Positions 20,942-63,856 of a stretch of DNA of 64,000 nucleotides are shown piece after piece (positions within the stretch are counted from its first letter, which is position 1; the number at the start of each line of letters is the position of its first letter). Location of the stretch: the NCBI GenBank assembly GCA_016800925.1, contig JABCPU010000115.1, forward strand, positions 62,001-126,000, written 5' to 3'. A program made the position numbers and the translations under genes. The stretch is from Suillus spraguei. Taxonomy: Eukaryota > Basidiomycota > Agaricomycetes > Boletales > Suillaceae. The notes under the pieces are model-generated. The model searched no databases. It saw only the letters and a program-made list of their open reading frames with translations, and was not told the DNA's origin.

Positions 20942-20945
20942 CTGT

Positions 20946-21018
20946 GGACAAATCCGGACTCGAACCGGAGACCCCCCGCATGCTAAGCGGATGTGATAAC
21001 CAGCTACACCATATGCCC
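20946..21018 (-). tRNA. tRNA-Ala (AGC), intronless
   Basis: A 73-nt cloverleaf: acceptor GGGCATA with TTTGTCC (one T-T mismatch and one G-T pair), D stem GTG/CAC, anticodon stem TCCGC/GCGGG with loop TTAGCAT giving anticodon AGC, and T arm TCCGG-TTCGAGT-CCGGA. The internal A box (TGGTGTAGCTGG) and B box (GGTTCGAGTCC) are present, and a T6 follows. A near-identical gene with a 9-nt insertion lies at 26081-26162. Confidence 0.9.
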
Positions 21019-21914: not shown

Positions 21915-23711
21915 CTAAACCTTTACCGTTCTAGCTTGCTGAACATATTTCTGCATTAGCACAACCACCTTCTTGAGGTTCTGGCTCATCTTTGCTGAAG
22001 TTGGAATGACGTCGAGTATGCGCTCCCCGTCTGGCGTCTTCACGACCATATCCGTTTTAACGTACTCCTCGAGCCTGCGCAGCTTTCCACGCGCCTCTTC
22101 CACTGCGTCCGGATCTCCTTCACCACCCAACAAGTCCGCTTTGTTCGCTATAACCATATGAGCTTTACCGCTCATGCCTGGTTGGTATTTCTCTAGCTCG
22201 TCTTTCAGATCTCTAAGCTCATCCCATGGTTCTGGGCGAGACAAGTCCACAACATAGACAAGTGCGAGGGATCGTTCCATTGAGCGCAGGAAGGAATGGC
22301 CCAGACCAACATTTTCTGATGCGCCCGATATGAGCCCAGGATTGTCTGCAACAGTGAATCGGAAAGTCTCATGAATGTCAAAGTCGTGACCTGGTTCTAT
22401 GTCAGGCCGGGGGAATCAGATGAATTATCTTGTAGGCGCAATTGTTCTTCAGGATTTTCTACGTCGGAAAGTTCGCGCTCCCGGAGGCGTTCCTCCTCAA
22501 TAGCAGTTTCGTCGAAAATATTTTCACCCTGAAGGGCGCCTTCGAATGTTCCATCTTCTGCTACACGAATGACACCAACGATAGGGTTAAGTGTAGTAAA
22601 CGCGTAGCCGGCAACTTCGGTCTTCGCTCGACCGCCAGTTAATGCGCGAAGAAGAGTGCTCTTGCCCGCATTCGGCATCCCAACGAGTCCAATATCCGCA
22701 AGAATCTTGAGTTCGAGGTATAACGTCATACGCTCACCCTCATGTCCGCGCGTCGCAAATTTGGGTGAACGGTTCATGGGTGACAAGAAATGCGGATTGC
22801 CCAACCCACCAGTGCCACCCCGGGCAACGACATGCCCTAGCCACTCCTGCTGACCCGTTCCAAGAGGTGCATCATCAGAAGTAACGACTTCCTCCATCTT
22901 GTCCAAGTCGAGATTGATGGGTGATAGCAGCCTCTGTTTCCTAGCCCAGCGCCTAGCCCTCTCCTCGCGGTACAGAGCTGCCTCCGCCTGTTTGAACACA
23001 TCGCGATTGACATTATCATCCGCATACCGCGGATAATGTAACCATCTGTCATCCCGAAGCTTCGCACGACGTTCCTCGGAACTGAGTCCCTGCAGCGACT
23101 CCTCTTCCGCTTCCCATTCATCCTTTGCGCGCCGTGGGTCGCCTGGAAGAAGTTCGCGTATCACCGTGCCTAGAGGAACTTTTATGATCGTTGGTGGCGC
23201 GTTTTTTCCATTCTGCCATGTCCCTTGGCCATTTCCGCCTGCGGCGCCTCGTACGCGTTTTGGGATGGATGAAAGAGTTGTGAGGTTGGGTGTAGGGAGA
23301 ATATAGACGTCGCCTCCACGTCCACCGCTACCTCCTGAAGGAGGTCCCATGGGCTTCCATTTTTCTCGGTGGAAAGCAACACATCCGTCACCCCGTTGCC
23401 TGCATGGTGTTGAGTATGTATGAGTGAATCCAGACGTGTACACACCTCCTCGAACGTTGATTATAAGATTGTCGAGGAAAGATTGACCCTACACGATGTT
23501 ATTATCAGGTGGTACGCGTATACATAGAAGTGGAACTCACCCCTTGTCTTCGCTTCCACTCTGTCTTTCGTTTCCGTCGAAGGAAATCTTGCAAGTTCTC
23601 GCCATCCTCTTGCGTCTCTACAGCAGCACTCGAAGCTTCCTGCCGTGCTGCGCCAGTGCAGTGAAATAGCCGTCTCTGTCTGGATAGAGACCTGCACAGT
23701 GGTCTTAACAT
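21915..23711 (-). CDS. MTG2: Mitochondrial Obg-family GTPase (MTG2-like), two apparent frameshifts
   Basis: Obg GTPase that assists large-subunit assembly of the mitochondrial ribosome. The start at 23711 gives a basic, hydroxylated presequence (MLRPLCRSLSRQRRLFH). SFLDNLIINVRGG is followed by the glycine-rich Obg fold (FHREKWKPMGPPSGGSGGRG, RGAAGGNGQGTWQNGK), then the G domain: G1 GMPNAGKSTLL, switch region YAFTTLNP, G3 DNPGLISGASENVGLG, G4 ANKADLL, and SA-type G5 PTSAK. A long insertion with many Glu/Arg residues sits between the Obg fold and the G domain. The conserved reading breaks twice: one extra G in the run at 23391-23394 (plus-strand C4) restores GGNGGDGCVAF, and one extra C in the run at 22409-22413 (plus-strand G5) restores the approach to DNPGLI. 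I treat the gene as functional with two base-calling errors. Confidence 0.82.
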
Positions 23712-24000: not shown

Positions 24001-25170
24001 TCACTTTCCTGCTGTCAAACCCAATAGATGGCCTGGTGTCAGTGCATGCGCGGGCTCTTCTCGTGGTCGTCTTGTTCGTGGCTCGTTCATTGAACTTGAC
24101 GGGGACGCCGGCTTTGGTAGCAGTTGTGGTGAGGTTGCGAGCGTGGAGGTACTGATGCGCAACAATAGCGATGCGGCAGTTTCATCCTCTGGAGTGTACA
24201 CTGGAGAGGACGATGCCGTGTCACTGGGACTCCGTCGTGGAACGAAACCCGAAAAACAAGGTTGAATATGTGTGACCGATTGCGGAAGGAATGTACTTGG
24301 AGAAGGAAGTGTCAGAATAGGTGGGATGCCGAAGATAGAGGAGGAGCCCGTGAATATTGCGGAAGTTGGAGGTGTTGGGAGCTGCTGTGATGGAGACTTT
24401 GAAGAGCTCGGAACTGGCCGGGTGGATGGTGACTGGGACGAATTCAGGGCTCTCCGAGTCCGTTCTGGCGATGAATGTGGAAGCCAGGTAGAAATGGATG
24501 GTAAGCGGGAGGACGAATCCTCAGCGGACCCCACTTCGGTCTTTGCACCACTTTCCTGCTTAACGTCTTGTTTCCTTCGCTTGGCCTCTCTGGCGTCCGA
24601 AGAAGATGGGTGAATGCACTGCTTGCACCCATCTTCTTCGAGGCGCTTCACCTTCTCTGTCAGGTCCTGAAGGTACGCCACCGTCCGCACCAGGATCTCA
24701 AGTTTGAATTCCTTTTCTCCTGCTTTCGATTTTCCTTTGCCCTTCTTAGGTTCGTTGTCTTCATCCTCATCACTGGCCTCTGCAGTTTCATTGAATCGCT
24801 TGTATTCTGCAGGTACAAGCTCTCTTAATGCAGCCAGGGCATCGTTAATTTTTGTGCGCCTAGCTTTTTCAATGAGCGAGTGGTTGATCTTCCGCTGAGC
24901 TTCACGTGCTGCGCGTGAAAGCGCCCCAGGTTTGCGACCCCGACGTTTGAGTTGTGGTGCTGGGGGAGGAGTATCGTAAGCGTCATCTTCAGTCTGGTCG
25001 TCGCTGGAAATCGTGCTAGAGGGTCGACAACGGTCTGACTGCGGAGCTATAACAGCAGCGCCTGAAGCTGAACGCAAGCGCTTTGCCCTGCGTGGAGTGG
25101 TTTCAGCGTGCATGTCCATCACTGCTGGACCTTTGAGAGGTGCAATTGCAATGGGTCGGAAGAGATGCAT
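24001..25170 (-). CDS. bHLH transcription factor
   Basis: A 389-residue single-exon nuclear factor. After a short N-terminus come an AT-hook-like KRRGRKPG and a basic helix-loop-helix domain: basic region REAQRKINHSLIEKARRTKI, helix 1 NDALAALRELVP, a loop lengthened by an acidic and then Lys-rich stretch (ASDEDEDNEPKKGKGKSK), and helix 2 FKLEILVRTVAYLQDLTEKV. NHSLIEKARR is the usual DNA-contact pattern for E-box binding. The C-terminal half is Ser/Pro/Thr-rich low-complexity sequence, as in activation domains. The basic region resembles fungal regulators of phospholipid or phosphate genes, but I cannot assign a specific orthologue. The start at 25170 is the first ATG; a second Met at residue 18 is an alternative. 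Confidence 0.78.
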   Translation of the reverse strand: MHLFRPIAIAPLKGPAVMDMHAETTPRRAKRLRSASGAAVIAPQSDRCRPSSTISSDDQTEDDAYDTPPPAPQLKRRGRKPGALSRAAREAQRKINHSLIEKARRTKINDALAALRELVPAEYKRFNETAEASDEDEDNEPKKGKGKSKAGEKEFKLEILVRTVAYLQDLTEKVKRLEEDGCKQCIHPSSSDAREAKRRKQDVKQESGAKTEVGSAEDSSSRLPSISTWLPHSSPERTRRALNSSQSPSTRPVPSSSKSPSQQLPTPPTSAIFTGSSSIFGIPPILTLPSPSTFLPQSVTHIQPCFSGFVPRRSPSDTASSSPVYTPEDETAASLLLRISTSTLATSPQLLPKPASPSSSMNEPRTRRPREEPAHALTPGHLLGLTAGK

Positions 25171-26071
25171 GACAGTTCATATTCGCATCCGCAAGGGCTT
25201 ATGAACGACATGCGACACGTTTGTCAAGCAGTGATTGGCTAGCATCCCGGACCCCGTAACGGATGGACAGCATCACAGTGGCCTGTAATGCACCCTATAC
25301 AACGTGCTTATAATTACGGGCAGTCCTGTCGCAATCCCTCGCACGACTGGTTTTGAGCGATCTTATTGGCCCTTCAAAAAAACGCACGTGTGCCAAGGGT
25401 TCAAGCGCTTACCTCTTATCATCCTTTCACACACAAGCATTTCCCATTCATTGAGGGAAATTCGCCGGTGGAGCCACGAAATGCCGAGCATGCAATCCAC
25501 GTACAATATCCGTTTACAGTGAATCTTTCCGCGTCATGGATACTTGTACGGTGGTGGCTGTCACTAGATATATCATGGAACATGAAATGGTGAAAGACTC
25601 AACAGACAAAATCATCCAGCTCTCCGGAGAGAACCTAGAGAGTCCACAGATGCCAGCTATCGGTCGCGCCGTTCTATCACGAAACATGACCTCCATACAG
25701 GTGGCGCACGAGCGCGATGATAATCATATTATTAGTTTTCGGCAAACTTGTATGTATAAATAAATGCTCAATGATCGATTGGGTACTCTTTGAGCGCTCG
25801 AGCTTGAAGCGAGTCGATATCTGGTTTATATCTACTTGGTGTATCGAGTTTTACTCGACTACAGTTGGGCTATATATAAAATTCCCACATGAAATCCCTC
25901 TTCCGTTCAAGTTACCATTGGCCACATGTCTTTCCTTACAGTATCCACCTATTGTAACGGTTGTAACGTTCAAGGTACAAGACTAACAAAACCTTCCCCG
26001 CCCCCTGAGCATCGGGGCGGCATTAAGTTTAATTATTACTAAATATTATTAGGTCTCCATGAATGCACATC
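25171..26071. other. Intergenic region without supported gene
   Basis: Promoter side of the bHLH gene followed by AT-rich sequence. The frames at 25536-25763 and 25717-25986 lack motifs. Confidence 0.45.
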
Positions 26072-26076: not shown

Positions 26077-26080
26077 CAGT

Positions 26081-26162
26081 GGACAAATCCGGACTCGAAC
26101 CGGAGACCCCCCGCACTCAGCCCATGCTAAGCGGATGTGATAACCAGCTACACCATATGCCC
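26081..26162 (-). tRNA. tRNA-Ala (AGC) with a 9-nt intron
   Basis: Every tRNA position is identical to the gene at 20946-21018, but nine bases (TGGGCTGAG) are inserted one base 3' of the anticodon. Removing them restores the same 73-nt cloverleaf with loop TTAGCAT. Position 37/38 is the canonical site of nuclear tRNA introns, so a genuine short intron is likely. A and B boxes and a T5 terminator are present. Confidence 0.85.
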
Positions 26163-32911: not shown

Positions 32912-35900
32912 CTAGTCGAGGATGATAGGCACTGAACCCTGATTTAAGATGGCACCAATAGGTTGCCAAGCGCATACTGTACCGATCTTCCTAAAGATAT
33001 TTGGGCCCACTCTATTCACCACAATCCAACGATGAACCGTCTGTGCTGGTTCCGAGGTAACATCCACGATCCAACAGTTCCCCATGTTTGGAGGGCTCTT
33101 GCAATGTATCCATGCCAAAACGACGAATGGCGTCTTGTGACCTTCAACTTGGAAGCATAGAACTCTCTTATTCCACCCTCCAGTCTCATGACCATAGGTC
33201 AACATTCGCGCGAAGTTCATCTCCTCCATAAATTCGAAACAACGGTTTAAGGAGCTTGCATGAAGTGCGGCAGAAAGTGCTTCTTGAGAACCTTCAAGCG
33301 CTTCCGACACGACCATATCTGATGTCGCAAGGCCGTGCTTGAGTTGTTGTATGATCGGATCCGTGTTGCAACCGTTGAATGTCAGGGACCAGGTACAGGC
33401 GATGATCCTGTTCATCTCCCCTCCCCCATCCCCAATGTTGATGCTTGTCCCCAATACGCATCCTACGAACCGCACCGCAATGTGCAATCCATTATTGGTT
33501 ATCTTCATATACTCCCAGTTGTGGTGGTGCATGGTTTCCGGGTGGAGCCCGGCGAGAGCAGCCCCAGGAAACCGTTCGTCCCAAAGAGTAGGGGCTGTGA
33601 TATGGGGCATCCAATGTCTCCCCTCTGTTGCATCGGGTTCCGGAGAGTCATGTAGCAATGGCCATACTCTTCCTAACATTATGGCTTTTGCTATCATGCG
33701 TGCCCACATAGATTCAAGCACTGCAGTGCCCGGACTGCGGTCAGAGGCTTCAACTAAATTTATTGGCACTTTCTCTTCGTTACTGAGCAGCCCATAAAGC
33801 CCCAACAGATGGTCCACAGCGTACGTGCATCGTTTGTGGCTGGTTTGCCGGATGAGGCTAATCAGGTTCACATGTCCGTTCTGCTCCAGTTCTTCCTTCA
33901 TTTGGAAAAGTAGGTTTCGCCTCTGCCAATTGCGTGGGGCAGAAATGACCAATTCCTTGTCTGGATGGATGAAGTTATAATCGGTTCCCCCTTGTGGTTT
34001 TTTCAGAGAGCCATTCCGCAATATCTTGTGGTACCAGTCAAGTAAGCGTCGTAATAAATCAACGCGCAGTTCTTGTCCATCGAGGAGGATGTGTTTGTTG
34101 GGTAACAGAAACTCCTGGTACGTCCACACTCTCCAGAACCATTCATCTCCGACGACAGCATCAAGCACTGCGATACTTTCCCAAATCCTTGGCGCATTAT
34201 CTTGCACAGAGGCATTGGTATCCATGATATTGCACGAGAGGTCCACGAGTTGTGCGTGTGCCAGCGGGAAATTTAAGTAGTCGTTGGGCACTACAAGGCA
34301 GGCTATTGCGTTGCGATAATAGTGGTTCATTTTCGGAATCTCGACAGCCTTTTCTTCGTTTGCCTCTTGGCTGTTGCTTTGGTTGATGCAGATGACGTCC
34401 ATCCACATCCATTTGACCCCTTTATCTGCCTTGCAGTAAGCCAAGATCATGTCCCACTTTGCGGGGTCTGAAATAGCAACAGGCCATTTGACAGTGGGCA
34501 GGATCATTCGGTGTTTGATCTCTCCCCACACTTGTGAAACTGCAAGGTAAGGTGGAATAGTATGACCTGTCTCCAGAAGGTACGTCTTTTGATCCTTCAA
34601 AACCTCATGCTCACAGTCATAGAGACGTAGTGGGGCTTTCACAAGGCTATAATAAGCAGATGCACAACATTAATTCGATGACAAGTCTAGTGTGATCTAG
34701 CTCTCACATATTTTCTCTCAGGTCACGTTCCTCGCTGTGTATCTCGTTATCTATGTCTCCTGCATCGACATCTGACTTTAGTTCCGCTACCGCCTCATGG
34801 TCTGCTTCTGGCTGAGATCTGCTAACTGTGCAGCGGAGTGCCTCCGAGTCCAGGTGCCCGTCACTTTCAGCGATTAGGATAGGTTGGAAGGCCTGCGGAG
34901 TCTGTCGGAATATGAATAGGTCGTCTCCCTGCAGGGTTTTTAGTGTCCATGAGCTGAACCCGTGAACACCCTGCGCTATAGGTTCTGATTCCATTGAGAC
35001 AAGTGGAGTGTAGTCAACCTAGTCTACATGTTAAAGATGTCCGGGGAGCATAAAACTCCAACCCATACCATGTATTGAATGCAGCTGCACGTTTGGTATT
35101 TGAGCGATTTGTAGATGGCACTCTTGGAGACAATTTGATGATGAAGTTCTTATGGTAAGTATATCAGACCCTTTTATTATGTGGGTGAAGTCGGCGGCTA
35201 ACCGATCAGTAAACCGATGAGTTCTTGCTGGCGATTATACTGATGCATTGACATATATTGCCTTGCATTCTAATTTTACCTAGGTCATTATTTGGCAAAA
35301 CCTTTTCTATATTGTTCTTACCAGTTCTCTGATCAGTACCGATGGGTACTGCATGATCCTCGCATAGCAATAAGTACAGCATATTGAAGGTAGATTCCGA
35401 CTAGTTCCAAAGATGGCAGCACGAATGATCCATTTGAAACAGACTCACCGGCAGTAGCACAGACGTTGACCTGGAATGTCTCAAACAGCGCCTGTTTGAG
35501 AAAGGGGCTTAGTTGGGCACTGCCGGAAACTATCAGTAGGGCCTGGATGCTGGGAATCATCAACCTATCAATATGGTTGAGAGCCATATGCTGGGATTCC
35601 GAATTGGATGTGCACACTCACTGTTTGGAAGCACCGCCGCGGTCGGCGATCGCAGACTCACAGCCGCAGTGGCGCAGCATTTTCATGATACTGGGTGGTC
35701 CGAGAGACCCTGAGACTCCTCCCAGAGTCCCCCTAGTGTGCAGTCTTCTGTTTCCTATCACCAAGCTATAGTTCTGAACTTCTGGTTGTCTCATATGTTT
35801 CGTGCTTGGCGTTCTCAGTGGCCAGTAACGTGTTGATATACACTTACGTAATTAAGTAGAATATCATCTCCGCATATATTTTTCCTTAGACAAACAAGAT

Positions 35901-39120: not shown

Positions 39121-40205
39121 CTACTCCCGTTGTATGACAGCTAACAGCCCGAGACCTCCGAGAAGCGCGTATTTAAGTTGCGGGAAATCATTCTAGGTGG
39201 TGTGATCAGCATTATTGAGCATAAAAGATGCGCCTCCAAGTGGGACGCGTATATACAGCTGGGACGGTAAAAGAGGCTCACCATGGCAATCGTCACGTAG
39301 CCAATGTATGGAAGGAACCTGAGGATGAAGTATGTGAGTGAATTGGAAGTGTGGTTAAGAAATTGAGGGGGAAAAGAGATGTGTCAGGCTGCGCAAGCTT
39401 TACCTTGCAACAAAATGAAAAGAATGTGAAAAACACGTACCCGCGAACCTTGCCAATGATATGTCTTCGGTCGATCCATTCAAGGCCCTGGTAGAGATCG
39501 ATGTCATCGACATGATTGTTGTCGCCTTTCGTGAGCATCAGTTGATGTTCCCCTGTCGGGAGTTTAAGTTTTGCGAGTCTGGGGCAGGGCAGGTTGTAAT
39601 TAATCATGGAATGTCCCCCGCAACGAACTACACCACAGAAACTCACCTGCTGTTGAGGAAGCGGTTTTCCGTAGAATTTTCAAGTGGGATGAAGATGTCC
39701 CTGGTCTCCAGGACCCGGTGTACGATGGGTATTTCGGCGCCAGGGATCCTGTACACTGTGATATCACCTGTGTGGTAGCGTTGACCTGGGGGGTTGGTGA
39801 GGAAAAGAAGGTCACCACGATAAAACGCTGGTTCCATCGAGCCACTGCGGACATAGGATAAATTAGCATGCAAGATCCAGTTTAGGGTAGGGAGAAATAG
39901 AGGTTTGAAATTGAATGCCTGATCATACACACCTTAGGACAACGACAATCGGAGATTCTGTGTTCAGGATCAGGCCGAGCCCTTTCCATAGCATGAGGCC
40001 GGATGTAATGACAGAGGCGAAGTTGAGAATTTGGAGCAAAAACTATAAGAGCCGAGATAGTCGACGCATATGGAGTCACGTCAAGGACACGTTGGCACAA
40101 ATGAAACAAAAGAAAAAGTCAGTTCTCTACAGAATAGTTGACAGCGCTAGGACAAACGTGTCGAAACCCTAGTCGACGGAACGTCTTGAGCTCGTCTGAG
40201 AACAT
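39121..40205 (-). CDS. SEC11: Signal peptidase complex catalytic subunit SEC11
   Basis: ER membrane serine protease that removes signal peptides during translocation. The start at 40205 is supported by [16 protein letters not shown]; a 5' intron of about 113 bases then gives [20 protein letters not shown]. The catalytic Ser lies in [17 protein letters not shown], and the His box is [10 protein letters not shown]. The Asp-containing stretch follows as [19 protein letters not shown]. The C-terminal helix continues [13 protein letters not shown], then after a last intron [19 protein letters not shown] with stop at 39121. Length and order match the family (about 165-180 residues). Six or so exons, all GT-AG, frame continuous. 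Confidence 0.92.
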
Positions 40206-41040: not shown

Positions 41041-44000
41041 TTATTCATTTACCGTCTCTGAGTTTGTACCATTTATATAAAGGAAATGGAAATTTGCTGT
41101 AGGGGATTGCTTGTCAATCTGCAAGTCCTTCCGGCCTCGTTTTGATGGGGTAGGGGCGACGGATCCATTTTTGCTGTTAATGTGAAGCTCATCTAATATA
41201 CGTTTTGCAGGTCTACGAACATCTGAAACAATGGCGTTGGGGATTTCTAAACGAGTCGGTGGTAAGGGTGGTGGAAGAGGAATAATCGAGGAGACGCGCC
41301 ATGAGGCTGATGGCCATGACCACGTCTTTGAGGGAGCTAGTGCATCCTTTGTTGACGTTTTGAAGATGACCGGCAGGATTTCATTCGACTGTAAACAAAC
41401 ACGTCCAGGTTGATTGTAAGTAAAAGGTGTGTCATACAAGTAAAACATTAGGAGAAAGTTGGTAAGGCCAAAGTACACACCTTTGCAAGTGTCTGCACAG
41501 CATGCAACACAACGAGGCAAGACTGTAGACCCTTCAAACACCACTGCCTTTCGAGCCAAGAGAGGAGATGACGATTCCAGAAAATCTTGAATGTGTGGTT
41601 GAGCGTCTCATCCCATGGATTTGGAGAACGTGAGAGATGAATGGCCCAGTTTTGACATGCATACTTAAGAGCATCAGAAGTTGATCGACTTCGTTCCAGT
41701 GCTTCGTTTGCAAAAGTCACAAAGGCATTCATGGCATGAATAATCTCCCTGTCTGGTGAAAAACGAGATTCTGACAATGCAGGGGTGGAATGGTCCTGGT
41801 GCCTAAACGCGACGAACGCAGAAAACATCAAGAGATCTGGTAAGCTCTTGAATTGCTGGATTGCTTGGAAAGCTGGAAGCAAAGACGCTTCTGGGCAGAA
41901 TCCACACTCGCTAATTGTTTCAAGTGTGCTCGTGAATTCTTCCATTGTCACCCAGACAGAAGCCGCAGGAGTCAATTGCCATGCTTCGCCACAGGGCATT
42001 TTCAGCCATTCTCGCCCGTTCTGGGTCTGCAACCAGGCTCTCCCGTCTCTAGTCTGCAGCCAGTCTCGCCCGCTCAGCGTTTCCAGCCACCCTTGTAACC
42101 AGTCTTGCCCGCACTTCGTCTTCAGCCAGTCCCGGCCACACTTGATCTGCAGCCAATCTTGTCCGCCCCGGGTCTTCAGCCATATTTTCGCATCGCGAGT
42201 TTGTAGCCAGTCTTTCCCACAAAGTGTCTGCAGCCAGTCTCGCCCTCCTGGCGTCCCTAGCCATGAGTTTCCTCCCATGGTTTTCAACCATTCCTTCCCC
42301 GACTCTGTCCGCAGCCACAATCGGCTGCCTAACTCGGGGGTCTGCAGCCAAGTCTCTCCCTCGGGAACCTGCAGCCAATCCAGTCCGTCACGGGTCCTCA
42401 GCCACCTCGTTCTTTGTATGTCATCACTGTGATGCAGCCAGATCTGATTCAATAGTGACCGCTCCGTCTTCGGCACACAGATTACCACACTTGGAATCCG
42501 CGAAAAGTCCTCCAACATCCAGTAATATTTCGTCGGCCGCAGGGATCGCCTACCTTTGGTTTTCAGCCAGTCTTTCCCGCCCTGGCTCCCCAGCCAAGTT
42601 TTCCCCAACAGACTTTCCAACCATTTCCTTCCGCACTGTGTTTGCAGCGAGTCCTGACCCTGCTGACCTTGCAGCCAATCATTCCCACCTTTCGTCAGCA
42701 GCCAAATGTTACCACCCAAGGACCACAACCAGCGTTGCCCAGCCCAAATCTGCAGCCAGTCCTTTCCTCCCTGAGTCTGTAGCCAGTCATGTCCCCCCTG
42801 GGTTTGCAGCCAGTTCTCCCCACCCATAGTACACAGCCAGGTTGTCCCTCTTGGAGTTCGCAGCCAGGCACACCCGTCCTGCGTCCCTAGCCAGGGCTCT
42901 AAATCTGAACTACGATCCCCTCGAAGCCATAGTAGAGCAAAGAGAACTGACAGTGGCTCTTGTGGCTGAACGAGGAAGGATAACGATTCTTTTAATCTTG
43001 TGGGATCTTGAGACTTCATAGCTCGGCTGTGCTTCTTCAATTCTGAGAGCATATCCAAGAGGGCTGAACGATCCGGAATCTCTTTCATCATCAAACGGAA
43101 AGAGGAGTGAGCGAGTAAGGAGTGGGGTGATGGAATGTCGTGAACTTGAAAAAGGTGGCAGTTTGAGGGGTCAGAGACGTAGTCACGAACTGACGAGTGA
43201 TAGATGTTCACGGGAAGATTGCTGTCGGGAGGGATGTCCATGACAGACCGTAGCTGCACTAGTACTGTCTCGACGTCCCTGCCCAGGCCGGGCCCAAGAA
43301 GTTTTGAGAGTTGCGATATTGGCAGAGGATCTGCAAGGGCAGCGACGATGGACAGGTGCTGGTATGCCCGCTTTGGGTCGGCGCAAGTGGAGAGGATACA
43401 GTCGTACAACTTGTACACCTCTGTTCCTGGTAGCAATTCACTCGCCAGATCCAGCATGACTTGAAGCTGATCGCGGGGATCACGATCTCCATCGTCAATA
43501 AACTTCATCATCGTAGACGCCACTATGAAACGTCTGCCCGCTCGGCTGGCCAGCCGCTCAAGCTCATCCTTTGATGGCTGGGGAAAATCAGGATGACGAC
43601 TTTGCAGCTCTGTGAAGGAATGATGCAAGAAAATATAGATGTCCTTGTCAACATCTGCACCATCTAACGAGATGGTAGCAGCAACGCCCTCCCCCGAAGT
43701 TTTCACGGGTATCTCGCACACTAACGGGTGTACCTCGACGTTCTGAAAGGCTTTACAGATATGCGATTCAGAGCGACTCGTAAGCAGAATGTGGGTCACA
43801 GGGAGGTCAGGTTCACGAAGGGCCCGTGCAAGGTAAAGAATGAGATCAGCAAGTTCGGTTTCAGACGTGCATTCGTCAAGGGCATCAACAACAAATGTCG
43901 AAGGCGGACATCCACGCAGTCTCAATTGAAGCCTTCGGAGAGGTTGGATGAACAATGCCTCCGCCTGGTCACGAAGAGACTTGTCAGGGTCTAGAAGAGC

Positions 44001-44441
44001 AGGATTATCCCGGATAGTTCTGTTGATGTCCGTCCGGATACTGGGAAAGTTGCTGGCAAGTTGGTATACAAGTGTCGCAAAGAAATAACCAGTGGTGCAG
44101 CGTTTCGTATGCTTTCGCGAGAAAAAGAATGTTCCCGCAAGCCGCTTTTCGACATGCGTCTCTTCTGTCACTTTTAGATCTCTCATCGTTTCGGCCACAG
44201 TGAAAGCGACAGCAGACTTTCCGACGCCTGCCGTGCCATGCAGCCAAATGAGTCGACTCTCCCCTTGGTTGTTTAGTAACCAGTGAATGTAGTTCAGAAG
44301 CTCCACTCGGGTCCCTTGTAAACATTTCGGGTGGGGCCGGCGTTCACGGGAGTCATATTCAGCACCCTTGACAGCAACCTGAGACAGCTTTTCCCAAGTC
44401 CCTTCAAACGATCCAGAAGCTATTGAAGAGATCAGAAGCAA
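41041..44441 (-). CDS. NACHT (NLR-like) protein with about 31 nine-residue Trp-Leu repeats
   Basis: STAND/NLR-type protein. Counting from the Met at 44441: a linker, a NACHT NTPase with P-loop GTAGVGKS (69-76), Walker B FVVDALDE (183-190) and the sensor-like HILLTSRSE (218-225). A winged-helix/superhelical part follows, ending near residue 500 (IYHSSVRDYVSD is the usual NACHT tail). From residue 517 to 829 come about 31 copies of a nine-residue unit W-L-x-T-x-x-G-x-[DE] (for example WLQTQGGKD), interrupted once after WLKTKGRRS. A helical C-terminal region follows. After an intron (about 41479-41400) a basic tail with KRGRK ends at 41041. Upstream, minus-strand sequence to about 45000 contains probable 5' exons (WVIRSSAASTSISLSIN and HTDYWTAETF), but I cannot place the start codon, so the true N-terminus is longer than shown. 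Role in non-self sensing is inferred from family only. Confidence 0.8.
41955..42893 (-). repeat. 27-bp coding tandem repeat array (W-L-x-T-x-x-G-x-D units)
   Basis: On the plus strand the word CAGCCA recurs about every 27 bases, encoding the Trp-Leu pair. Units are not identical: Trp, Leu and the Gly are nearly fixed, Thr is common, while the residues between vary. A 35-residue non-repeat insert and two units of irregular length (11 and 12 residues) break the array. The array's reading frame is intact from end to end. Confidence 0.85.
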
Positions 44442-44990
44442 CGGAGATTAGATATGGAAACACTGACAGTAACCTTGACTCATTTGAATTAACGATAACT
44501 TGCGTCGCAGATTATGAACTGGAACTAGTTTGGGAAGTGCTAGTACTATGATTAGAAATCATGAGGGCGAGGTATCTCAAGGAACAACGTACTATCACGT
44601 GTGTGCTCACAAAGCCTTGAAAACTATGCTTAGATAGAAATGTTTCGGCGGTCCAGTAATCAGTGTGTTCGATGATATTAATGGACAGCGAAATAGAAGT
44701 GGAAGCTGCGGAAGAACGGATAACCCACTGTATATCAGCGTCAGTGAGACTGAGCTGTACGGGTACGTCCTTGCTGTACCAGCAGCCTGTGCGAATGCAG
44801 TTCAATGCACAATTCGTCCGCCGGCCCGTGAAGTAAATTATGTAATATTAGTTCCGTTGCTAATTATTAGTTGCCACTTGCCAGCTTAATACTACTTACT
44901 ACATACTCCACTCACAACAGTATTTGTCGTCGTGCCAGGGACAAGCTCTCGGAAAGTCAAGCTCAAAGGTACAGGTATTAGATCAGAAAG
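44442..44990 (-). other. Probable 5' exons of the Trp-repeat NACHT gene
   Basis: Minus-strand frames with good splice signals are visible at about 44745-44620 (WVIRSSAASTSISLSIN, ending FLSKHSFQGF) and at about 45045-44925 (VPLSLTFRELVPGTTTNTV). They resemble the C2-like/adaptor N-termini found before NACHT domains in agaricomycete proteins. No in-frame ATG is found for the outermost exon, so a further exon or a sequence error is likely. Confidence 0.45.
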
Positions 44991-54721: not shown

Positions 54722-57700
54722 TCATCTTTTCCGGAGTGTGTAGTGTTGCATTAAGGAACTGATCATGATGTAAAGGTCGTCGTAAATGGATCTGCAGACT
54801 TCACCAACTAGTAAATATCGATGATATAGTTGGGTGAAAGTGGTCACTCACGTGATAGCTCCCCCTCGAGTATTCCTGAAACAACGAATGCACAAATCGG
54901 ATCAGGGTTACCATGGTAGGCAGTGACTGCAACCGAAAACTCGACGAGTTGGGATTCCTCAGTAGCATCAATGACCACCCCCTTAATTCTAGTCCACGGT
55001 TTATCAGCAGTGAGGGCCGCTGCTTGAACCTTGGGAAACCACGTCTCATTTGTAGCCCAGCTCCACATGTCTGGATGGAGGTTTGCTGTTGCTGACAGCC
55101 CTGCGTTTTTCTCGAGGAGATACGGGATAATATCTCCGTAACATTCGTCAAGAGCAATATGGAGTACTGTTCTGGCTTCCTATCTTGCAAAGAAAGATTA
55201 CAAGACGGCTCGACAAGAGCTTTTACGACGCATAGTTCCGGATGCCATTTGTGAGACACATTCCAGGGGGGCACCCGAGGAAATAATGGATAGGGGTATG
55301 ACCATAGAATCTGAAATCGACATCCGCACCGCGTTGACGAAATTTGCGGATGGATTCGTGTGAATAGTTGTTTGCCCTGACAGCCATGTGCAGAACATTG
55401 TTAGGTAGGCTGACCCCTGTTTGTGATAGCAAGAAATCCACGGAAATCTCACTTCCAGTCCCAACTGCCCACGACATTGGATCATAGTAGCCGTCATAAA
55501 TACGGAGAATTGGTGATATAATCCGACTTTGACGAAAGAAGGTTTGTTGGGATCAACGCCCGACGTCAGGAGAACACTGAGGCAGTCAGGGTTCTTGGTT
55601 ATGGCGAAAATCAACGGGGAACCCCAATCAGGGGCAATATCCACATCCAGTAGATGGGGGTATTGCTTGACGATGAATTCAACCATCCATGGTTTCCCGT
55701 GCTCGATTGGGATAAATAGAAGTGAGGGCAAAGTCACCGTGGCACTCAACCACCTATCAGTAGGAGGTGACCCTATACCTACATACTCAGAGCGTCGCTT
55801 GAGTTGCAAGCACACGATGTTTCTTGGTGTTTCGAAGAAACTCTGAGTTCAACCGTGACAGGGTATCCATCACGTCCGAATCATGATCCAAAACATGTCC
55901 AAGATGCTTCCATCCTTGGATTGCATAGCTAAGCAACGGATGGTCTTTGCTGACATCCGAGATATCAGCACGATGTAATGAACGACATCGTCCTGGATCT
56001 TTGCCGATACAAATATCAGTTTCTTAGCTCATATATATGAAAGATGGCATTGCACCTTCAAGTTTTGTGCATGTATCGTCCACAAAGTCGCATAGCACAT
56101 ACGTAATTAACAGTTTGCAGATTCGTGCATGCATGTCTGAGACCGATTTGAGGATCTTATCAGGATGACTGATCAAGTATTCCTGGTTGCATGGCGCATC
56201 AGCGGATGAGTAGAATGACGAGTTTAATATATCATACTTTGACACTATAATGAGATAGAGCGACGATGCCAGTTTTCTCGTTATAGCTCACGAGGCTTCC
56301 GCACGCGGTCACGATATCCATAGGGTCCATAACACCAAGGTTCGGATTAAGATTTGATCGTCCGACTTCAATCGTCATCGCTTCGTTAAGCTGATCAAGC
56401 GTCAACGGGGTAAACGTCCCGGCAAGCCAAAGCAAACAACTCCGGGCAATCTGGTCATCGCTTCGTCCTCTTTGTTTGATGGCCTGAATAATCCTATCGT
56501 ACGTCTCGTAAAGTCCAGCTGGAAGGTTATCCAGGGCTGCCTCAATATCGACGTGTCTTTTGCAAGCTACAATTTCGTCTAGTTGACACTGAACCCAGCG
56601 AAACCTGTATACAATCATTCAAATATTTCCGAGGAGTGAACGAAAATTACTTTACTTACATGCCATCAGCCTTTTCTAACAATCTCTCTAAAATTGTCTT
56701 CTTCAGCGCGTCGGAGAGGCGTGATAATTTCTTCTGAGTCTTCAGCTGCTCAGTAATGTGCGCACATATGTCTGCTTTCATCTGTTCTGCGCTATCCTTC
56801 AGCATCATGGTGGGGAGATCGTTAAAGGCATCTTGGATGTCTGGTTCGCTTCTACCGGTGACGAAAAGTCGTAGTCGAGCATCTTCAATTAAGTTTACGA
56901 GATATCCGACCAGGTCGGGGTAGTCCTTGCATTCGTCCAAGGCATCAATCACGAGGACTGGTCGGTGAACTAGCGTAGACACTTCAATAAGAAGCTTTCG
57001 TAGAAATCCCAAATCTGTGGGATGCAGTTTTGCATCGTTTTTTTGCTGCCGCAGGTTTCGCAGAGAATCAAGGTGCCCGTTTGTGTTCGATTCTTGCTGC
57101 TCGACTATTTTTGTGATCCAGTCAACTTGAGATTGTCGAAGCAGCTGAACAATCAAGGATCGTAATACTGCAGCCGCGCTCGTTGTTCGGTCGTCTCGGA
57201 AATTGCAATAGAAGTAACCAAGTGTCTGTGGCTCTGCTTTATCGCTACCCTGAATGTCGTCGATGACAGCGGAACTGATTGTTCAGAAGTCAATCTAAGA
57301 ACTCTCCGGACAAGTCCAAACTTACGCAAGGATAGTCTTTCCACTCCCAGCTATTGCAAGCATCAGCATGCTGCGATCACTGATGAATGTAACGAAACTT
57401 ACGCTGGCCATTCAACCATAGGAATGCATGATCGGATTTATTCCAGGCCACATACTGATCTGCGTGGAAGATCCAACGACCGGTCTCGGGGTTGCGCTGA
57501 CGACAGGAGACATCGTGTTTCTCAATACAAGACACAGGGCTCATCCATTCAAGTAACTCCTGGCGTTCCTTGTCTATGCATGTTGAACAACTTGAAGGTG
57601 AGAAAGTAGTTGATAGTAAGCCACTCACATTTCTTGTGCGCCTCCTGCGCCTCTTTTAATTCCTGATTCCTCGACTGACTTCTTTGACACCTCGATCAAC

Positions 57701-58182
57701 TTCCTTGAGTGTGTTCCTGGCGCTGGATTAGCATAAGTAATCATGACGAGCGAGTCAACTAACCGCGAGTCTATTGCTAGAACCGTTGTGATGTCACGAT
57801 AAAAGCCTCTCAATCTCTCAGCAATCGCCACTGCTTTCTTTTCCTTGAATGGCCACATCAACTTAGATATCGTACCCATTCTCTTGTTCTCCTGCTCGTT
57901 GGGTAGAAGAACCTTCAGTTCTCTCTGTAACTTTGTGACTGGTCCATTTTCGGCCATCAGTTTTGAAAGCACATCGCGGAGATTATCTGGAAGAGAGGGA
58001 TCTTTCTCGATCTCTATAACGGTTGTCAGGACTCCGAGGATTGAACTGAGCTCATCAAGCAGAGTTTGGCAGGACGAATCAGCGTCGTGGACGGAAGCAA
58101 CATATCCATACAAAAGAGCTGAGGCTTGGGCTATCGTTTGAACGAGCTGAATAATGGTCACGCCACTGGTGATGGGATCCAT
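54722..58182 (-). CDS. NACHT-ankyrin (NLR-like) protein
   Basis: STAND protein. Exon 1 (58182-57625) encodes a fungal STAND N-terminal helical domain, MDPITSGVTIIQLVQTIAQA, like those of Helo-like signalling modules. A linker exon has WMSPVSCIEKHDVSC and GRWIFHADQY, then the NACHT domain over three exons: the P-loop is split by introns (WLNGQ, AGSGKTILA), followed by YFYCNFRDDRTTSAAA, Walker B VLVIDALDEC, FVTGRSEPDI, and the winged-helix part DIEAALDNLPAGLYETYDRI. After VALSHYSVKEYL come ankyrin-type repeats: GSPLIFAITKNPDCLSVLL, NNVLHMAVRANN, DFRFYGHTPIHYFL, TVLHIALDECYGDIIPYLLE. The last exon ends at 54722. One extra T in the TTT run at 55535-55537 restores the frame inside the ankyrin part, and a missing G near the GTAAAAG donor at about 55218 is suspected. 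About 950 residues; at least ten exons. Confidence 0.75.
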
Positions 58183-58660
58183 CTGGACAGTGGAAGATGT
58201 AACCCTAGCACCGCCGCATTAATTATTGAGGGTAGACGCCCATCGACCTATTTGTAACTGCCAGCGAGACCCTGAATGTGCATTGGCGCTTAAGTATTGT
58301 AAATAAGAATTAATATAAAGCACATCAGCATAACTTGAATGAGTTTGGATGAGGGTGTTACCTGAGATCCCAGGCCCTTCGAGCATCTGGATTGGATTCT
58401 GAGACTAGAAGAAACGACTATAAGTTAGTGCTGACTGACTATTTTGGTCAACACTGACTTGGAGATTTAGAAATTGAACATGCCAGGATCAAGAGCAAAT
58501 CATCTCTTTTCACATTTTATCGGGAATTCATATCCTTGCACTCGGGACTCGCATCGCAACTATCTTGTCATCACTTTTTCGAAGGGGACTGACGTGGCTA
58601 AGGTGCTCAATATTTCCATCGCGTTTGCTATCACATATATAATGGGCCACCGAGTATGAT
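58183..58660. other. Divergent spacer
   Basis: Lies between the NACHT-ankyrin gene start and the protease remnant. No gene. Confidence 0.45.
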
Positions 58661-62311: not shown

Positions 62312-63856
62312 TGAAGGCGAGACAAGGTTGGAAGGAGTGAAAAATAAGAAGGAATGAATGTGAGAGTGTGTTTCTGCTACGGAAAGACCACTTCAAAAGG
62401 TGAGTGAGTGTTTTTTTTCATTTGAGTCAGCCACTCAATTTGAAACAGTCTGCCTATTATATGTACCATAACGCTGAGCGCTGAGCCAGGGTTGACCTTT
62501 CCCTGTCTGGCTTAGTCCGCTATTTGGTGAGTTTTTGTCAAAAAACTTAAACACAGCCTTACAAAGTGCTAGTGCACACACTCGTTTTCTCCTTGGTAAC
62601 GTTCCTGTCATCGGGAACATTCTTATTGGTGGCCAGATAATTGGATGAAAGGCGTTTCCTCCATTTACCGACTACCAAGAAGCATTCTTGTTACAATCGT
62701 ACGTGCCCCTATTCATTCTCTACTACATTTACCTTGTACATTACGTAACATGCCTCTGACTCATATGCTCAACGCATTTGTACTATAGCTGCCTTCCTTT
62801 CTTTGGATATGCACTTACATTCCCACGTCTCCTTTGGTCCGTGTGCACATATTGGTCTATTTAAGCACGGTGTACTTGTAGTAGATTCTTTACTTTAATC
62901 TTACTGGGTTTTACCTGGAATCTCCTTCGCTTAGGTCTCCAACCTAAGTTGTCTTGAATTGTCTCTAAGTCTAAGCACTCCTTAGCCTTAGTCTCTATTC
63001 TCATGGATACCTCTTAGACTTGTCTTTGAGGCTGAACCCTTGATCGTACTCAGAACGCGTTCCTTGTACTTTCACCTTGTCCTCTTTTGGGCATTGTAAG
63101 AACTTCCCAGCAGACTGTCTGTGTCTTTTCACTGTCGCTGGTGACACCACCCCAGTTCGTAACAATTCTCTTCCCCACTACCACCCTCTATGTTCAGTAC
63201 ATTCAAGTACTATGGTGCTCCCTTCATTTACGAACTATCGAGACGCTTTCCCCATCACCGCCCTCTATGTTTAGCACGTTCTACTACTTTCCCTCCAGGC
63301 TGATAATGGGTCCGTCGGCTGGGCACAGCATTCCTCCATTACGAACTATCGTGCTTTACTCCCCATTACCACCCTCTTTGTTTAGCATGTTTCATTTACT
63401 TTTCCCCCTGGTCCCGTCACCCAGGCTAATCGGATGCAGGTCATTTTGTCCATTTATCATGAAGCAGCCTCCTCTCCATTGCCACCCTCTGTCTGACTCG
63501 GACGTGTTCAACTACTGCGCCTGGCAAAAGTCATTTACCTGCGCTGGCATGCTCAGACATGTTCAACTACTGCGCTTGGTGAAAGTCATTTACCTGTGCT
63601 GGCATGCTCCAGACATAATTAATGAGTTGCTTCCATTGCTGCAAGATTTGGATTTGCCAATACTGCGCATATGGCATCCTGTCATCACTTACCCAATTTT
63701 TTTTACTTCGGTAGAGCCTCGCCTTTGACATGCTGGTGACACCACCTCTCTTTTCTGGCCATCAGAATTGCGATTCACTTGTACTGTTGGGAGATGCGTT
63801 GTGAGTGATTTTCAGACACCCAGTGTTCAATTTTTTTCATAAAATTAATACAGAGC
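62312..63856. other. Divergent region with imperfect tandem repeats
   Basis: Lies between two divergently transcribed genes. Imperfect repeats: TTACGAACTATCG...ACCCTCTATGTT units at about 63160, 63230 and 63340, and a 55-base-period duplicate of GACATGTTCAACTACTGCGC at 63501 and 63556. A frame at 63087-63728 crosses these repeats but shows no protein-family features. Confidence 0.5.

Follow-up and report, generated by a model that had tools for sequence, protein, structure and literature searches.

A Trp-Leu nonapeptide array as a candidate sensor repeat in a NACHT-type protein of Suillus spraguei

Alpha-solenoid repeats such as TPR, ANK and armadillo use units of about 30-40 residues, each made of two or three helices. 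In fungal NLRs, a survey of 5,616 proteins recorded WD, ANK and TPR sensors, with only 52% of the C-terminal parts matching Pfam (PMC4986451), and a 2023 review lists the cues that these receptors sense via their diverse C-terminal parts as a crucial open question (PMC10197012). The closest described systems are HET-E and HET-D, the WD40 NLRs of Podospora anserina, which are described as combining a NACHT domain with an internally repetitive sensor that has an invariant frame, few hypervariable positions and differences in unit number (PMC12222747, PMC4986451). The Suillus spraguei protein analyzed here, encoded within a window of 64,000 nucleotides (the whole stretch of DNA that was examined), resembles HET-E and HET-D in all of these respects. 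However, it has a nine-residue unit rather than a WD40 blade, no HET effector in front, and a further conserved domain behind the array.

Gene model and organization of the array

The array is contained in a 999-residue stop-to-stop frame on the reverse strand (41448-44447). Joining the inferred exons listed below gives a protein of 1098 residues with a single terminal stop, in which the domain order is NACHT, winged-helix part, Trp-Leu array, conserved C-terminal domain and tail exon.

44474..44483, reverse strand: inferred exon 1, with the ATG and first residues MSQ; annotated homologues also begin MSQ
44420-44473, reverse strand: intron between exons 1 and 2, 54 bp, GT-AG, frame kept
41481..44419, reverse strand: inferred exon 2, running from the NACHT part through the winged-helix/helical part and the array to the C-terminal domain
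43761..44291, reverse strand: nucleotide-binding domain of NPHP3_N / NACHT type, with the P-loop at residue 65 of the 1098-residue protein
41952..42929, reverse strand: Trp-Leu nonapeptide array, including the N-terminal lead-in LWLRG... and the closing unit GxAWQxTPAASVWV
42450..42539, reverse strand: irregular stretch in the array, pLDDT <50, model residues 627-656
41481..41945, reverse strand: C-terminal helical domain of about 155 residues, conserved in array homologues and modeled as helices by AlphaFold2
41389-41480, reverse strand: intron between exons 2 and 3, 92 bp, GT-AG, in frame through to the stop
41041..41388, reverse strand: inferred exon 3, a tail with basic clusters RRPAKR and KRGRK; a similar tail is present in P0014 and P0041

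The original prediction of an NLR-type NACHT protein is borne out by a Pfam match above cut-off, which includes a GxxGVGKS P-loop, as well as by a fold match. Only 64 residues precede the P-loop, and these gave no Pfam match and thus no effector domain N-terminal to NACHT; short N-termini are common among basidiomycete NLRs (PMC9815663). The array occupies the usual sensor position between the winged-helix part and the C-terminal domain. It is not the C-terminal end of the protein, as had been proposed, since the ~155-residue domain and the tail exon come after it.

There are 32 W[LQV] anchors at residues 507-832, 31 of which lie from residue 519 to 832 (window 42893 to 41954), in good agreement with the predicted count of about 31 copies and with their predicted position. 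The array contains 23 WL-x7-WL pairs, whereas 20,000 shuffles gave 0.07 on average and never more than 3, which rules out a chance origin. Anchor spacing is mostly nine residues, and self-identity of the protein is 0.345 at lag 9 relative to 0.03-0.09 at the other lags from 1 to 39 except 18, 27 and 36. When 27 units are placed in one register, Gly occupies position -3 (counted from Trp) in 25, Trp is present in 26 and Leu in 26, while the neighboring residues vary. The unit proposed earlier, W-L-x-T-x-x-G-x-[DE], is therefore correct as to its fixed Trp, Leu and Gly, but not as to its acidic residue, which precedes Trp in only 14 of the 27 units. The array is broken by an irregular stretch of 43 residues (W627 to W670) and has register slips at W670-682, W700-711 and W783-787; at residue 600 there is a Ser in place of Trp with the register kept. 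The reading frame is maintained over about 1 kb of array. Elsewhere in the six frames of the window there are two isolated WL pairs and no second Trp-Leu array.

At the DNA level the units are old. The proposed 27-bp near-tandem repeat is visible as a self-identity of 0.463 at lag 27, but Tandem Repeats Finder reports just 2.7 and 2.4 copies at two places within the array DNA. Comparison of the units with one another gives a pS of 0.53-1.16, and thus saturation, at the eight positions that have real synonymous sites, so the units are too old for useful dN/dS among themselves. By comparison, pN is 0.04 at Leu, 0.08 at Gly and 0.39-0.61 elsewhere except at Trp. Because pN is low at Leu and Gly while pS is saturated, the core of the array is held at the protein level. 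A DNA-only repeat is also ruled out, as Trp, Leu and Gly are kept while synonymous sites vary. The per-position dN/dS comparison suggested by the original prediction accordingly recovers a constrained core without demonstrating diversifying selection.

Relatives of the array and change among them

An array-driven search found 118 proteins, and all 65 that carry a species name are from Suillus (16 species) or Rhizopogon (2 species), with S. weaverae contributing nine. Related strings had been anticipated in other mushroom proteomes; among the species-named matches of this search, the array appears to be restricted to these two genera. One of the 118, P0118, is RTX-like. When the C-terminal domain was used as the query, 63 proteins were found, 62 of which were already in the array set. 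In P0119, an annotated S. placidus NLR, the NACHT part runs straight into the C-terminal domain without an array, which may be a true loss or may reflect annotation of the array as an intron. A profile search that scored the 7,995 candidates sharing most words gave 139 matches; among the 120 matches listed, the array has other partners as well, with WD40 in P0025 and P0187 (S. decipiens) and DUF6699 in P0200. The lead-in pattern is present in 34, and the closing pattern in 31, of the 37 homologues that have both array ends. Three further proteins have unusual arrangements. P0120 has a Trp-Leu array beside a Cys-rich end, P0205 has similar units of the form S-P-x-G-Q-x-W-L-x, and the P0113 model has, after a few units, a long ERESVAGDT-type repeat that looks like the Trp-Leu array in another frame.

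No Pfam, NCBIfam or PHROG family matched the array of the window protein above its curated cut-off or with a convincing E-value, no ANK, TPR or WD40 profile matched it up to E 1, and no convincing solved-structure relative was found by sequence search. The claim that the unit is unlike known sensor repeats thus holds, with the qualification that the Pfam RTX profile, which stays below cut-off in the window protein, passes it in some relatives. We recognized no published description of a Trp-Leu repeat in a literature search that lay mostly within sources other than subscription journals and preprints; the repeat screen of PMC5472282 took in units of 30-43 residues. Within the scope of these searches, the array would constitute an undescribed class of sensor repeat in a known kind of receptor.

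We compared unit numbers in 27 proteins that have NACHT, both array ends and the start of the C-terminal domain, with the provision that these counts may be altered by assembly or gene-model errors. Some pairs differ greatly relative to the identity of their NACHT regions (P0008/P0091, 54 vs 21 units at 94%; P0029/P0109, 38 vs 7 at 87%; P0004/P0094, 58 vs 21 at 84%), while others are stable (P0009/P0014, 33 vs 31 at 92%; P0003/P0030, 38 and 38 at 85%). Adjacent units are more alike than shuffled ones and this excess drops with distance, a pattern that would be expected of single-unit duplication. The predicted gain and loss of units is thus seen between some close relatives, but not in the first 12 units of this copy, which are collinear in orthologues of four species. 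For this reason gain and loss appears to characterize the family more than it does this particular gene.

The apparent orthologue group has six members, namely the window protein, S. plorans P0014, S. weaverae P0009, S. brevipes P0015, S. hirtellus P0083 and S. occidentalis P0041, with the orthologues 77-84% identical to the window protein. P0041 was left out of the substitution counts, as its model breaks inside the array. In the four other orthologues the first 12 units contain gaps in only 2 of 432 cells; in the second half, there are extra units in S. brevipes and S. occidentalis. Relative to the window protein, Trp and Leu each change in 0 of 68 cases over both halves and Gly in 1 of 68, while Thr at +3 changes in 17 of 67 and the NACHT region in 135 of 1640. 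Position -2 changes in 26 of 48 cases (first half, four species), and positions -4, -1, +2 and +4 change in 16, 14, 12 and 11 of 20, respectively (second half, two species, where the register is less certain). Pairwise over the five proteins, the variable positions differ in 160 of 596 comparisons (26.8%), the core plus Thr in 28 of 476 (5.9%) and NACHT in 296 of 4100 (7.2%). Fixed Trp and Leu with varying residues in between, as originally described, is therefore seen both among units and between orthologues, with Gly as a third fixed residue. Note that fast change is not peculiar to the variable positions of the array, because the C-terminal domain also differs from that of S. plorans P0014 at 40 of 155 residues (25.8%). 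In the irregular stretch (residues 628-668), 62 of 78 aligned cells differ in two orthologues.

These rates bear on whether the array serves as a passive spacer, or is decaying in the manner of a satellite repeat, recognizing nothing and with variable positions that are simply unconstrained. The pN of the variable positions, given saturated pS, fits relaxed constraint equally well as diversification, and the irregular stretch, the register slips and homologue models that finish in a frameshifted repeat (such as P0113) are all congruent with decay. However, Trp, Leu and Gly are kept along the whole length across several species, the ends of the array are conserved, the frame has stayed open over its length, and nine-residue spacing is strict in most of 117 proteins. 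We consequently regard a passive spacer as unlikely.

Predicted fold and the RTX question

Across 3,229 units from 205 proteins (leaving out six RTX-like proteins, P0121, P0205 and P0214) the consensus is G-[RQK]-[DE]-W-L-Q-T-x-x. Units were counted only if there was a Trp nine residues before and after, so Trp is at 100% by construction; Gly is present at -3 in 87.4%, Leu at +1 in 91.5% and Thr at +3 in 78.8%, with Ser, Thr, Asp or Asn at this last, cap position in 88.7%. Pro is seldom seen outside +4 (15.3%), Val, Ile and Thr together do not exceed 4.3% at any position but +3, and a charged residue is present at -2 in about half of the units and an acidic one at -1 in 62%. These rules fit a short helix that would begin after the Thr cap, with Gly, Trp and Leu on one face.

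A full AlphaFold2 run (979 residues, 50 homologues; mean pLDDT 74.9, pTM 0.52) models most units as one helix of 6-8 residues followed by a short turn. Its pLDDT is 80-87 at model residues 501-620, below 50 across the irregular stretch, 55-68 at 661-700 and 69-81 at 701-830. A second run with the array only (130 residues from its first part, with a rough alignment) yielded helices in the second half at pLDDT 72-91, but mostly strands in the first half at pLDDT 45-57; the remaining four of its five models had mean pLDDT of 42-49. The fold prediction that had been called for thus returned a helix per unit in the full-length model and low-confidence strand in the first half of the array-only model, and we consider one helix per unit to be likely on the basis of these models.

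Charge pairing within the unit is complementary in three of five position pairs at i+3 (z -3.6, -2.8, -2.2), at i+4 for -5/-1 (z -2.9) but not for -2/+2 (z +2.0), at i+5 for -1/+4 (z -4.7) and in two pairs at i+1 (z -4.2, -2.9), with no complementary pairs at i+2 (z -0.9 to +3.8). This agrees with a helix and, with many pairs drawn from related sequences, is suggestive only. The hydrophobic moment of the helix segment is 0.44-0.46 at 80-100 degrees, falling to 0.14 at 160-180, but the full unit shows only a weak contrast (0.36 at 80 vs 0.30 at 180). RTX control units, which form a beta-roll, also peak near 100 degrees (0.22 vs 0.07 at 180), so this measure cannot tell a helix from a beta-roll and was set aside as evidence.

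A calcium-free or degenerate relative of RTX that folds as a beta-roll must be weighed against this helical reading. The two repeats share a nine-residue period with G-x-D-x-L in register. PF00353 reaches 20.8 bits in the window protein (below the cut-off of 23) and 76.9 bits in P0025, a precomputed PF00353 label is present on 36 of the 118 array relatives (RTX-like P0118 among them), and P0021 is called RTX toxin-like in one source. There are also weak matches to solved RTX proteins, as well as the strands in half of the array-only model. The RTX consensus, however, is XUXGGXGXD with a calcium-binding turn (PMC6891781), and GGxGxD occurs in 0 of the 3,229 units, so membership by consensus was rejected. 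Where RTX has a free position the array has Trp, and where RTX has its two glycines the array has Thr and Gln/Pro/Glu. RTX units from the six RTX-like matches do keep the GGxGxD residues (82 units, each taken after a perfect unit, which biases them to the consensus), and in P0121, described below, Asp stands at the corresponding place in only 4 of 38 units. Furthermore, the three alignments shown to solved RTX proteins have single stretches with i-Evalue 0.15 or worse, the full-length model is helical in the array, and RTX proteins are mostly secreted and Gram-negative (PMC6891781), whereas the array sits in an intracellular receptor context. An RTX relationship with a beta-roll fold is therefore, in our assessment, quite unlikely.

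Proposed function and a possible bacterial counterpart

The best reading is that the array represents a new type of sensor repeat, specific to its lineage, in a fungal NLR. Its place in the protein, fixed frame, fast positions and unit turnover match NLR sensors such as HET-E and HET-D, from which we infer a recognition domain by analogy; sensing, autoinhibition and a role in non-self recognition or defence are proposed on the same grounds. More specifically, this would be a NACHT-type NLR in which the ANK, TPR or WD40 sensor has been replaced by a nonapeptide solenoid of about 30 units that serves as an evolvable binding surface, which we judge to have about an even chance of being correct. 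In such a solenoid each unit would form one two-turn helix, with the Thr at +3 capping the helix that follows; against this role, the Thr is itself changed in 17 of 67 orthologue comparisons. The packed face would consist of Gly (-3), Trp (0) and Leu (+1), leaving -4, -2, -1, +2 and +4 more or less exposed. Fast change at the exposed positions, together with gain and loss of units in the family, would generate the evolvable surface, and the solenoid would hold the NACHT part inactive, to be released on binding of a ligand or non-self variant, in the way that the WD40 sensors of HET-E and HET-D act. The predicted stacking of helices with variable residues on the outside is similar to that of TPR, ANK, TALE and armadillo repeats, but the array would have a single helix of about 7 residues per unit.

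Similar units occur in P0121, a protein of 680 residues whose 38 units follow one another without a break in register (pattern x-G-[RK]-x-[WF]-L-x-[TS]-x). Its likeness to the window array extends to its closing unit, AGKAWQAST, which is near the Suillus GxAWQxT, but P0121 has a nuclease-like domain instead of NACHT and often Phe instead of Trp. Its first 310 residues resemble the PADLOC PD-(D/E)XK family RTasPDDEXK (E 3.5e-12) and are 25-30% identical to plasmid proteins of Streptomyces, Rhodococcus and Embleya, several of which are annotated as UvrD-helicase. P0121, a single sequence, is probably bacterial, and it is possible that its units and the fungal units are alike by convergence.

Searching with P0121 by tblastn gave 4 phage and 23 plasmid records, and searching with the window array gave 4 plasmid and 2 phage records. 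In candidate L001 the match sits opposite an annotated gene, and in L002 the match is to the nuclease-like part. Candidates L003, L004 and L006 were rejected as Trp-Leu arrays upon translation, as the matches lie off the annotated frame or strand over other repeats, and L005 proved to be RTX on translation. The annotated genes of L003 and L004 (Salmonella phage, plasmid), which adjoin superinfection-exclusion genes, carry a different nine-residue repeat, SAATNTGxx. Pattern scans of genome contigs gave 15 and 53 matches, and of viral contigs one scan without a match and others with 18 and 382, none of which was confirmed (by tblastn for the genome contigs); with two to six short patterns each, these scans are weak evidence of absence.

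A wider reading is that there is one undescribed class shared by bacterial and fungal immunity, in which each nine-residue unit would be a Thr-capped helix of ~7 residues, perhaps the shortest alpha-solenoid unit. In the NLRs of Suillus and Rhizopogon this module would act as a hypervariable immune sensor, and in bacteria it would be attached to a PD-(D/E)XK nuclease-like domain of the phage-defence kind. We hold this combined reading only tentatively, as possible but doubtful; if the helix-per-unit fold and the bacterial link were confirmed, it would amount to more than a new sensor repeat in a known kind of receptor.

The coupling of similar units to a nuclease-like domain in P0121, as well as the basic clusters of the tail exon, could also suggest that the array reads DNA or RNA in a TALE-like manner. 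The period, however, is 9 and not the 33-35 residues of TALE repeats (PMC3978159), and the net charge of the arrays is near neutral, with +9 over 326 residues in the window protein and a median of -0.7 per 100 residues (range -9.5 to +5.6) in 36 homologues. As this near-neutral charge disfavors nucleic-acid binding in general, we consider a TALE-like array very unlikely. Least probable of all is an amyloid-like or polymerizing stack that signals by assembly, since, even though the units are rich in Gln, Gly and Thr and signaling motifs of this kind are described for fungal NLRs, Agaricomycetes included, the known motifs are short and N-terminal (PMC9815663), and the charge at -2 and -1 and the rarity of Val and Ile noted above argue against it.

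Returning to the sensor-repeat reading, a sensor whose nine-residue units combine a fixed core with five free positions would be unusually simple, and strains of ectomycorrhizal Suillus could then be directly compared for unit number, surface residues and incompatibility type. Should the fold of one helix per unit hold, the unit would also offer a very small module for the design of binding proteins.

The window contains several other features, of which the frames, genes and tRNAs are all on the reverse strand. A HET-domain frame of 585 residues (32915-34669; PF06985, E 7.3e-13) lies ~6 kb from the NLR gene, and a second NACHT-type gene lies ~12 kb away (56659-57282 and 57628-58218; NPHP3_N, E 7.5e-19), with an upstream frame that has a sub-cut-off PigL_N match (23.2 bits, cut-off 27.2). 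The frame at 39643-39933 has a sub-cut-off Peptidase_S24 match. Also present are tRNA-Ala (AGC) at 20944-21018, an Obg-type GTPase at 22400-23488, a helix-loop-helix protein at 24004-25176, tRNA-Leu (TAG) at 26079-26162, and a 55 bp tandem repeat of 2.2 copies with 89% matches at 63497-63616.
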